This document shows, piece by piece, positions 23,001 to 29,945 of a stretch of 64,000 nucleotides of DNA (the stretch's first letter is position 1; each line of letters begins with the position of its first letter). This DNA comes from a virus. The translations under genes and the position numbers were made by a program. The stretch lies in the IMG/VR virus record IMGVR_UViG_3300030105_002498, positions 1 through 64,000 of that record, one strand, 5' to 3'. The notes under the pieces were generated by a model. It did no database searches, was not told where the DNA came from, and saw only the letters and a program-made list of their open reading frames with translations.

Positions 23001-23009
23001 GCATTTTGT

Positions 23010-23150
23010 AGGGATAGTGGGACTTGAACCCAGGTGTATACACTTTGTACTTCAGCATATACCTCAACTTCGTTCACGTTATAAAGTTTAAGAAACCTTT
23101 TACGACCTCCTGCTTATAAGACAGGTGCTCTACCAACTGAGCTATACCCC
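23010..23150 (-). tRNA. tRNA-Ile(UAU)-like gene with a 70-nt insertion
   Basis: The 5' part is a canonical tRNA: acceptor GGGGTAT, D arm CTC..GAGC with TTGG, and anticodon arm CCTGT/GCAGG with loop CTTATAA (anticodon UAU, Ile). After AGGTC comes a 70-nt stretch with two small hairpins before the T arm (TGGG TTCAAGT CCCA) and the acceptor 3' strand CTATCCC (6 of 7 pairs). Either the variable region holds an insertion, or two partial tRNAs are fused. Confidence 0.5.
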
Positions 23151-23163
23151 CATATTTAAAAAT

Positions 23164-23235
23164 CCAGATAGACCCTGACACCATACTCAAACGTAACATC
23201 TTGTCAACTCCTAAGAGTTACGGGTATCTACCTGG
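23164..23235 (-). ncRNA. Structured RNA with long closing stem
   Basis: On the minus strand CCAGGTAGATACCC pairs with GGGTCTATCTGG, enclosing CGTAAC/GTTACG with an inner AACTC/GAGTT hairpin. ATTTTTAAAT follows, so the element could double as a terminator. It shares the pieces CCCGTAA, GAGTA, ATGGTGT and AGGGT with the RNA at 23571-23675. Identity unknown. Confidence 0.5.
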
Positions 23236-23244
23236 TTTTTATTG

Positions 23245-23398
23245 TAGCGTAGATAGGAGTCGAACCTACAATCTTCACCTTAACGGTGATGCATAACGGA
23301 ATACTAAATAGGAAAACTTCAATTAGAATTAGTTGCAACTACTTCTTATTTTATAAATTCCATTTCAAACATATTCCTGTCCTTCATGCTTCTACGCA
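23245..23398 (-). tRNA. tRNA-like gene with 91-nt D loop (154 nt)
   Basis: All four helices of a tRNA are found in order: acceptor GCGTAG/CTACGC (6 bp plus a mismatch), two nt, D stem GCAT/ATGC, one nt, anticodon stem TCACC/GGTGA, a 5-nt variable region, T stem GTAGG/CCTAT with TTCGACT. The D loop is 91 nt long and is itself closed by GGAATA/TATTCC. The anticodon loop is only GTTAA if the 5-bp stem forms. It could not decode normally, so function is open. Confidence 0.55.
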
Positions 23399-23474
23399 AA
23401 AGTTTATTCTTGAGAGACTTTAACTAGCTAGCTTTCAGTACGATATGATATACTTTATCATAATCTCTCAATTG

Positions 23475-23544
23475 TATCTTAGATGGGAGTCGAACCCATA
23501 ACTAATCCCGCTAGGGAGTACTCTACCTGTTGAGTTACTAAGAT
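23475..23544 (-). tRNA. tRNA-like gene with 4-nt anticodon loop (70 nt)
   Basis: Acceptor ATCTTAG/CTAAGAT is perfect, D arm ACTC/GAGT with AACAGGTA, T arm ATGGG/CCCAT with TTCGACT is perfect. The anticodon arm CTCCC/GGGAT encloses only TAGC, three nt short of a normal loop, exactly as if the anticodon had been lost. Variable region TAGTT is normal. The good helices mean it probably folds as a tRNA, but it cannot carry a usual anticodon. Confidence 0.55.
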
Positions 23545-23570
23545 TGCATATTAAAATGCTACCAAAAACA

Positions 23571-23675
23571 TTATCTTTTCTAACCTGGCAATGGCTGTCT
23601 ACCCTCTTCACACCATGTACTCATGGATATTGCCCTTCAGAGTGGGTTGTTGAAGCCTTTTACGGGAAAAGATAA
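23571..23675 (-). ncRNA. Structured RNA, about 105 nt
   Basis: On the minus strand a perfect 10-bp helix (TTATCTTTTC/GAAAAGATAA) encloses a hairpin CTTCA/TGAAG with an 11-nt loop, a GGCAAT/ATTGCC stem and an inner CCATG AGTA CATGG hairpin. The loop ACCCACTC can pair with GAGGGT, suggesting a pseudoknot. It begins 1 nt after the stop of the 63-aa gene. No known RNA family recognised; it is not 5S rRNA. Confidence 0.45.
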
Positions 23676-23937: not shown

Positions 23938-23971
23938 TCAGGCGTGGGTTGACCTGATTTTTTGGGATTTG

Positions 23972-24416
23972 TGGAGGTGCTGGGATTTGAACCCAGGTCC
24001 AGACAATTTTCTAAAATACAAATTATACATGTTTTGCACAGAGAATTTCACTCTACACACTTGAACGTCAACCTAAGTTGTCAAGTCACGGTTATTTCTA
24101 GAAATAACAAGAGCAAAGTTTTCCACTTCACAGTTTTGGGATTCGCAATTCCCAGGGCTAACCGAAGTTAACTTCCACCATCTCATTTTTACTTCAAACA
24201 AAAATGAGAAAAAAGAATTACTATGCTGCTTCCAAAACTTGTGTTCTAGGAGATACATAGGTTGCAGTCAGTAAGTTATTCGCAATAGCGTTGCTTACCT
24301 CTGCTTTGTTAATTGTATTAGCAATTATGTTTTACTTATTAGTATTTTAGTGGTTAATAAGCTTTCCACTACATGTTTGTACATCTTCCAATTCCTGTCG
24401 ATTCCATTTCACCCCC
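23972..24416 (-). ncRNA. ssrA: tmRNA (transfer-messenger RNA)
   Basis: The 5' end GGGGGTG with ATG-GAATCGACAGG matches the start of tmRNAs, and the 3' end GGACCTGGGTTCAAATCCCAG then CACCTCC gives the T arm and acceptor strand; GGGGGTG pairs with CACCTCC (7 bp, one G-U). A reading frame at 24283-24221 encodes ANNLLTATYVSPRTQVLEAA and ends in tandem stops TAG TAA. A TCTCATTTTT/AAAAATGAGA hairpin and further stems follow. CCA is not encoded. The resume codon (GCG at 24283, or earlier) is not certain. Confidence 0.8.
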
Positions 24417-24426
24417 ATTAAAAATT

Positions 24427-24520
24427 AGCAACTGACTTCAGGACTTTACCTGCTTTCTAGTTATCACTTCGGAGTATCTATTAGAGTAAGCTCTGAGAGT
24501 TTTTTACTTTGTCAGTTACT
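24427..24520 (-). ncRNA. Possible structured RNA or terminator upstream of tmRNA
   Basis: Minus strand AACTGAC pairs with GTCAGTT 75 nt later, with an inner CAGG/CCTG hairpin next to the 3' arm, followed by AATTTTTAA just before the tmRNA 5' end. It may be a leader/processing structure for the tmRNA or a terminator. Confidence 0.35.
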
Positions 24521-24626
24521 AAAAGTGACCAGCCTACGCCTTACATCTGGTCTGTTACCCTCATTGTAATTTCCTCTGCTACTGAGAGAGTTCAAATTAC
24601 TGAGTCAATAGTCTAGAAACTATAAT

Positions 24627-28770: not shown

Positions 28771-28965
28771 AATATTGTAGTTTTATAAAGGATTAAAAAA
28801 TAAAGTGTATGTTATAATACTATTAAGAGCTTTTAGTCTCTCTCATACTCGTTAGGAAAAGTGCTGTTTTTAAAGCCTGTCTTTTCCCTCACAAATATCT
28901 TCAGGACATGCAACTAGTGCAGCCTAAATCCTCATTATTTCTAATGATTAAATAATATTGTGTCC

Positions 28966-28988
28966 CAAATTAGTGGGGGTTTTGAAAG
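28966..28988 (-). promoter_or_regulatory. Repeated promoter-like box, copy 3
   Basis: Minus strand TTCAAAACCCCCACTAATTT then GGG, upstream of the 72-aa gene and immediately downstream of the expanded tRNA-like RNA. Confidence 0.6.
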
Positions 28989-28994
28989 AATGTG

Positions 28995-29220
28995 TCTTCA
29001 CTCTTGGAGTCGAACCAAGAATTACCACGTTACATTTAATAGTCATTGAAGTTAAGCACACACTTAAAATCTTTCGATTTAAGGCTTTAAGTCTCGTTCT
29101 TCATATATTTACAGATTGCTATTAAATGTGCAAGGCTCTATACTATTCCATCAGCAGTTAAATTAATAACTTTTGCGAAAATACATTACCATAGATTTAC
29201 TTTTCACCTTGCAAGTGAAG
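28995..29220 (-). ncRNA. Giant tRNA-like RNA (226 nt) with expanded D and anticodon arms
   Basis: All four tRNA helices are perfect and in order on the minus strand: acceptor CTTCACT/AGTGAAG (7 bp), TG, D stem CAAGG/CCTTG, one nt, anticodon stem ACATTTAATAG/CTATTAAATGT (11 bp), 12-nt variable region, T stem CTTGG/CCAAG with TTCGACT loop, acceptor strand, A. The D loop is 71 nt and the anticodon loop 76 nt, the latter with an internal GAAA-tetraloop hairpin. Position 1 lies inside the 3' end of the 74-aa gene. Not explained by a known intron class. Confidence 0.7.
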
Positions 29221-29428
29221 ATATTGTAAACTCATCCCAGAGTTTATCTTTAACAGCGTCAAGTTCTTGCTGCTTTTCTCTTATAAAATCACTCACCATG
29301 TGTGAGTGTGTTACATCTAGGAAGTATCTATCTTCCATACTCATTAAACTAACCTCTTTTGAATACTCTTCTTCATTGAGCATCATGTTGTACTCCCAGA
29401 TTTCATAATCTGTGTTATAGTCTTTCAT
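29204..29428 (-). CDS. Unknown small protein, 74 aa
   Basis: Acidic helical protein (DYNTDYEIWEYNMMLNEEEY, then FIREKQQELDAVKDKLWDE). The last codons overlap the acceptor 5' strand of the giant tRNA-like RNA. Function unknown. Confidence 0.5.
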   Translation of the reverse strand: MKDYNTDYEIWEYNMMLNEEEYSKEVSLMSMEDRYFLDVTHSHMVSDFIREKQQELDAVKDKLWDEFTISSLAR

Positions 29429-29866: not shown

Positions 29867-29922
29867 AATAGTGGTAGTTTTAAAGGTAAAATGAATTCGC
29901 TAAACTAAACAAATAGTTGCTA

Positions 29923-29945
29923 CAAATTAGTGGGGGTTTTGAAGG
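29923..29945 (-). promoter_or_regulatory. Repeated promoter-like box, copy 4
   Basis: Minus strand CTTCAAAACCCCCACTAATT then TG, 57 nt upstream of the 92-aa gene and immediately downstream of a terminator (29964-29996), the best promoter-like context of the five copies. Confidence 0.65.

Follow-up and report, generated by a model that had tools for sequence, protein, structure and literature searches.

TLR1 and its family of tRNA-like phage RNAs with a conserved domain in the D arm

Anatomy and setting of the TLR1 locus

What is an RNA in which every helix of a tRNA pairs perfectly and the loops at the D and anticodon positions run to 71 and 76 nt? The question is raised by an IMG/VR record of 93,330 bases from a crAss-like phage of Bacteroidota, whose terminase shares 58% identity with the terminase of Flavobacterium phage Fpv2; the window analysed here is a 64,000-nucleotide stretch of this record. 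The initial annotation described the locus and left its strand unstated. We placed it on the minus strand because this orientation is favoured by the consensus of the T loop, by the promoter-like motifs and by the genes around it; both strands fold better than their shuffles (folding z of -2.5 and -3.2 for the two). The RNA, for which we coined the name TLR1, runs from 29220 to 28996 with a discriminator A at 28995 (28995-29220, minus strand; 225 nt plus the discriminator), and its perfect helices, a strict descriptor and a covariance model built without it all point to this feature.

Read 5' to 3' on the minus strand, TLR1 begins with the acceptor strand CTTCACT (29214-29220), TG and the D-stem strand CAAGG (29207-29211), passes through the 71-nt D loop to CCTTG (29135-29131) and a single C, and enters an anticodon-position arm (29032-29129) made of an 11-bp stem and a 76-nt variable loop. 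The 3' strand of that stem is followed by a 12-nt variable region (AACGTGGTAATT, 29020-29031), the T arm CTTGG-TTCGACT-CCAAG (29003-29019), the acceptor 3' strand AGTGAAG (28996-29002) and the discriminator, with A-CA next after the acceptor strand. Rechecking confirmed that all four helices are perfectly complementary in tRNA order, with 7/7 pairs in the acceptor, 5/5 in the D stem, 11/11 in the anticodon-position stem (ACATTTAATAG at 29129-29119 with CTATTAAATGT at 29042-29032) and 5/5 in the T stem; the spacings of 2, 1, 12 and 0 nt and the loop lengths of 71 and 76 nt reported earlier were exact. The description of these as giant loops is right in size but needs amending in kind, as neither is a plain loop: both hold nested hairpins in predicted folds, and the D loop also holds a conserved module.

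Such pairing had been judged unlikely to arise by chance, and shuffling bore this out. A strict descriptor (acceptor of 7 bp, D stem of at least 5 bp, anticodon stem of at least 8 bp, T stem of 5 bp with a TTCRA loop, span of at most 300 nt) gave TLR1 as the sole match in the window and no match in 2,991 dinucleotide shuffles of it, while a looser descriptor gave 30 matches in the same number of shuffles.

A promoter-like motif (CCCCCACTAATTTG, 29920-29936, minus strand) lies upstream of the unit that TLR1 ends, and the next such motif (28963-28979, minus strand) lies 15 nt beyond the TLR1 discriminator. The motif TTCAARACCCYCACTWATTTG is conserved before transcription units in this crAss-like phage clade, from which we infer a promoter role. 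The form TTCAARACCCYCACTWATTTGkrG was seen on the minus strand of the window at 29936, 28979, 26934 and 22889, and also in L014, L021, L022, L024-L027 and L029; a scan of genome contigs for the promoter motif gave scattered matches in unrelated taxa. Two other units carry terminator-like hairpins at the place corresponding to TLR1. At the 5' end of TLR1, the last 17 nt of a 74-aa ORF (29204-29428, minus strand; 99% identical in a near relative) overlap the RNA. TLR1 12-mers showed no excess elsewhere in the phage's own genome, and thus there is no sign of an antisense target within the phage itself.

A family sharing a D module and covarying helices

Scans with the terminase, the 74-aa ORF and a lysozyme-like protein yielded a sole further TLR1 carrier, IMG/VR contig 3300035196_000195 (L007), which is ~97% identical to the window across most of the region. 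L007 retains all four TLR1 helices and matches TLR1 exactly in the acceptor and D stems. In the anticodon-position stem, ACAUUUAAUAG/CUAUUAAAUGU of TLR1 becomes ACAUUUAAUUAG/CUAAUUAGAUGU: each strand gains a base, which adds a U-A pair, and one existing U-A turns into U-G. Unrelated sequence has taken the place of the D-arm tip (29142-29182 in TLR1, minus strand) and of the inner part of the anticodon-position loop, giving D loops of 71 and 70 nt and anticodon-position loops of 76 and 74 nt; this hypervariability of the D tip at near-equal length is repeated in a second lineage. The T stem of L007 is kept, its T loop is GGCAGCA and TTCRA is lost, so tRNA-type processing may not hold in this relative. 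A GG in the variable region, considered as a T-loop partner, disappears along with the T loop in L007 but is unconserved in the family, and was set aside. When the window was aligned to L007 and L008 (22918-24650 and 28943-29582), divergence between these near-identical phages fell mainly in the tips and loops of RNA arms and took the form of sharp block replacements, the tmRNA pseudoknot region included.

Searching IMG/VR with the 5' conserved part of the D arm returned L039, a contig where another tRNA-like gene contains this D arm and the rest of the DNA has no similarity to the window. A family pattern (TGAANAGTAAANNNNNGGYAATG) that omits the closing helix retrieved 20 contigs from IMG/VR. 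Fifteen of these, further to the window's own contig, have UCUAU or UUUAU at the centre, and all fifteen have the AUAGA partner and the full acceptor/T-arm frame; the remaining five, with another centre, lack both. For the frame, the acceptor start was set by the core and an end was accepted only with perfect pairing. Because the core fixed the acceptor start, the presence of the frame in each of the 13 distinct sequences counts as a genuine test, and the requirement for an acceptor and T stem was satisfied by random positions in 70 of 20,000 trials.

The conserved D module, which lies inside the giant D loop, reads CAAGG-UGAANAGUAAA-UYUAU-GGYAAUGU…AUAGA-G-CCUUG. Across the family the order is acceptor, 2 nt, CAAGG or CCAGG, UGAANAGUAAA, UYUAU, GGYAAUGU, a variable hairpin, AUAGA, G and CCUUG or CCUGG, followed by the anticodon-position arm, a variable stretch with AAU, the T arm, the acceptor, A or G, and C. 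The D loop spans 58-111 nt and the anticodon-position arm 9 to ~100 nt, the smallest being TTGCTGCAA in L056 (9 nt). In TLR1 (all minus strand) the internal loop of the module is TGAANAGTAAA (29196-29206), with 10 of 11 positions identical in all 13 members, which were retrieved by a pattern fixing those same 10 positions. The inner helix P2 pairs TCTAT (29191-29195) with ATAGA (29137-29141) and is paired in 13/13. It is followed by GGYAATGT (29183-29190), invariant in the 13 members except at Y; this block includes a D-loop-like GGYA and may touch the T loop at the elbow. The 3' half of the module is ATAGA-G-CCTTG (29131-29141), in which ATAGAGCC-T-G is invariant in the 13 members, as is the AAT of the variable region immediately 5' of the T stem. 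A TTCRA T loop is present in 12/13 members, L007 being the exception.

Core identity reaches 97-100% between phages whose flanks are unalignable (34-44%), and the D tip and anticodon-position arm share only 15-68%, including where the upstream flanks share 78-79%. Members often begin a few nt past the stop codon of a small ORF, as L074, L075, L080, L061 and L067 do.

Compensatory changes in related phages had been proposed as the check on this locus, and they were found. Each of the 22 pairs is intact throughout the 13 distinct sequences, and two-sided changes are seen at 11 of them (7 acceptor, 3 T-stem and 1 D-stem pairs; 49 cells), in addition to the two-strand insertion in L007. Double changes occur at all 7 acceptor pairs, and one A-U pair of the D stem becomes C-G in relatives; in P2 the sole change seen is C-G to U-G, and two-sided covariation is absent from this helix. 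The covariation score was 0.514 compared to 0.118 in shuffled alignments, with 0 of 500 shuffles reaching it, and RNAalifold, given no structure, recovered the same helices with the D stem lengthened to 7 bp. A leave-out covariance model of 11 members, from which TLR1 and L007 were excluded, matched TLR1 end to end (60.8 bits, E=4.6e-13) and scored L007 at 56.0 bits, and in the all-member model TLR1 scored 102.7 bits against 116-143 for the others. TLR1 and L007 are divergent members of the family, whose existence and anatomy we consider very probable.

Carriers span several lineages, with crAss-like TerL proteins, TerL proteins like those of Flavobacterium elemo and Cellulophaga phages, and phrog_38 TerL proteins, as well as L039, which was without a match; some have groEL or a protein whose other occurrences are in records of uncultured megaphages. 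Searches by blastn of 50,697 named phage records and 72,556 plasmids gave no member, and the 701-bp TLR1 locus had no match among named phages. The named phage MW202828 gave a weak match (27 bits) that looks like an ordinary tRNA-Leu-type gene. The family model found no member in 395 Bacteroidota genomes, a set that contains no positive control. In the crAss-like relatives L014-L038, nhmmer and blastn gave no TLR1 homologue and the all-member model no full-length member. A search of the open-access full-text literature, a scope that leaves aside subscription papers and most preprints, did not find a description of the family, which is apparently previously undescribed.

Relation to tRNA, tmRNA and other structured RNAs

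TLR1 belongs to an RNA family that is new, although the tRNA-like scaffold on which it is built is known. The suggestion of a new type of RNA in the initial annotation is upheld by 13 distinct covarying sequences without an Rfam match: an Rfam 15 scan of TLR1 and ten member loci returned nothing, the Rfam tRNA gathering threshold was not reached at any of them, and ARAGORN left TLR1 and members uncalled at the loci examined. Like tRNA (RF00005), the family has an acceptor stem and T arm in the canonical order and of canonical size, with a 7-bp acceptor, a 2-nt link, a D-position stem, a TTCRA T arm and a discriminator, and some members have an anticodon stem of near-normal size. Unlike tRNA, its D arm is a conserved domain, and the anticodon loop and U33 are unconserved. 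That TLR1 cannot decode in the normal way, as claimed earlier, stands, the 7-nt anticodon loop having given way to 76 nt in TLR1, 74 nt in L007 and a 9-nt mini-arm in L056.

The family resembles tmRNA (RF00023) in having an acceptor and T arm without an anticodon and a long insert at the anticodon position, and differs from it in having a paired D stem with a conserved domain and no tag frame. No tag frame with a resume codon was found, the sole ATG-started frame in the TLR1 loop being missing from L007, and neither RF00023 nor ARAGORN gave a tmRNA match at TLR1 or member loci. The G3-U70 alanine identity pair is absent from TLR1 and from 12/13 members, and only L039 has it. The TLR1 phage carries a separate tmRNA gene.

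Other structured RNAs offer partial parallels. GOLLD and ROOL are large structured phage RNAs frequently encoded close to tRNAs; the TLR1 family has no Rfam match to them and is far smaller and tRNA-shaped. YrlA bacterial Y RNAs and viral 3' tRNA-like structures are noncoding tRNA mimics, from which the TLR1 family differs in its hosts and in the lack of an Rfam sequence match.

The window and its relatives contain further odd RNAs. The phage tmRNA lies at 23969-24416 (minus strand), with counterparts in L014, L018, L024, L027 and L029 and one left unannotated in Fpv2; the tag is unusually long in this clade, ARAGORN giving 33 aa (ANTINKAEVSNAIANNLLTATYVSPRTQVLEAA) in the relative and between 8 and 26 aa in others. 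At 23475-23544 (minus strand) a tRNA-shaped gene has a 4-nt loop at the anticodon place, which makes decoding impossible. The RNA at 23243-23397 (minus strand) is tRNA-like, with a ~100-nt D loop, a D stem of GCAT/ATGC and a 5-nt anticodon-position loop; it is 100% identical in L007 and is without the conserved D module. Inserts of 70-105 nt occur in tRNAs at 23009-23151 of the window (minus strand; in the T-stem 5' strand, where excision would leave a perfect T stem, GTGGG/CCCAC), at 12242-12408 of L031 and at 2545-2688 of L062 (both in the anticodon arm). Several small structured segments with long closing helices (24420-24620, 23565-23660, 23405-23470 and 23155-23235, all minus strand) sit between the tRNA-like genes; in the relative one is 98% identical and another has its interior replaced. 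The inserts of the other odd window tRNAs share only the T arm with TLR1, and one 10-mer with L007.

Possible functions of the TLR1 family

Taken whole, the best explanation is a new scaffold-based phage RNA family acting as a non-decoding tRNA mimic, to which we assign a probability of about 0.5. The mechanism, mimicry with occupancy of a partner, is put forward tentatively, at somewhat less than even odds. Host RNase P and RNase Z would excise the RNA from a polycistronic transcript via the acceptor and T arm, which would also stabilise the product; the conserved D domain would be the active part, docking on a tRNA- or ribosome-handling component and thereby occupying it; and the two variable arms would either act as struts that stabilise the RNA or be what varies from host to host. 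RNase P and RNase Z recognise the acceptor and T arm, and processing by these enzymes is proposed because those parts are present; action via the D domain is proposed because this domain is what selection keeps. It counts against this scheme that an RNase P cut at the TLR1 acceptor would also remove the end of the overlapping 74-aa ORF.

Two other roles in translation are each unlikely on our weighing. The RNA could inhibit or divert trans-translation by titrating SmpB or another tmRNA partner, as an acceptor and T arm without an anticodon follow the logic of the mycobacteriophage DS6A tmRNA, which has little beyond the tRNA-like domain, and a molecule similar to it strongly inhibits tmRNA, perhaps by SmpB titration (PMC4131195). 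The TLR1 phage and its relatives have their own tmRNA genes, so the pathway matters to them, yet for the same reason SmpB titration would be of little gain; in addition, G3-U70 is missing in 12/13 members, and the D domain neither resembles the D region of tmRNA nor matches Rfam tmRNA. The D module could instead mimic 23S rRNA (E. coli ~470-515, helix 24, domain I), making the RNA a tRNA-rRNA chimera whose helix-24-like domain would capture a ribosomal protein or exit-tunnel factor. AAGGUGAAAAGUAA and GAAAUAGAGCCUUG match 23S AAGGUGAAAAGAAC and GAAAUAGAuCCUGA at one homologous place, in the same order and spacing. The resemblance, noticed before being tested, covers 23/28 positions in Flavobacterium (0/1000 shuffles as good) and 21/28 in E. 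coli (6/1000), but single blocks alone are not significant, and the conserved P2 would compete with the rRNA-like internal loop.

Somewhat less probable again is a decoy or shield against tRNA-cutting defences, an idea raised in the initial annotation, with the anticodon-position arm as bait for an anticodon nuclease. Retained tRNA ends would suit such a decoy, as would an anticodon-position arm and D tip that are hypervariable between near-identical phages, as in an arms race, but the arm shrinks to 9 nt without a fixed 7-nt loop or U33, and conservation falls on the D domain rather than the anticodon arm. We hold it equally improbable that TLR1 serves the upstream mRNA as a signal for 3'-end processing or stability and does nothing in trans. 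It closes a unit immediately ahead of another promoter-like motif, a place taken by terminator-like hairpins in two other units, and several relatives start a few nt after a small ORF; both observations are consistent with this role, whereas a plain signal needs no invariant ~55-nt D domain across unrelated phages. The initial annotation also offered a processed precursor, and an intron-containing tRNA whose inserts are spliced out to leave a normal tRNA is very improbable here. Nearby and related-phage tRNA-like genes do carry anticodon- or T-arm inserts, including that at 23009-23151, where removal would restore a perfect T stem. In the TLR1 family, by comparison, it is the insert that is conserved, an anticodon loop that could be restored is missing from several members, and no Rfam intron family matches.

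These findings describe a covariation-supported phage RNA family that Rfam and ARAGORN missed entirely, in which a tRNA scaffold is put to a non-decoding role and the D arm rather than the anticodon arm is conserved. If the chimera with 23S rRNA were true, Bacteroidota phages would take over or protect host translation with a new class of RNA. Returning to the tRNA mimic, TLR1-family RNA probably contacts a conserved host target, because the core is near-invariant across unrelated phages and the two arms turn over fast; such a target would be directly findable by pull-down.
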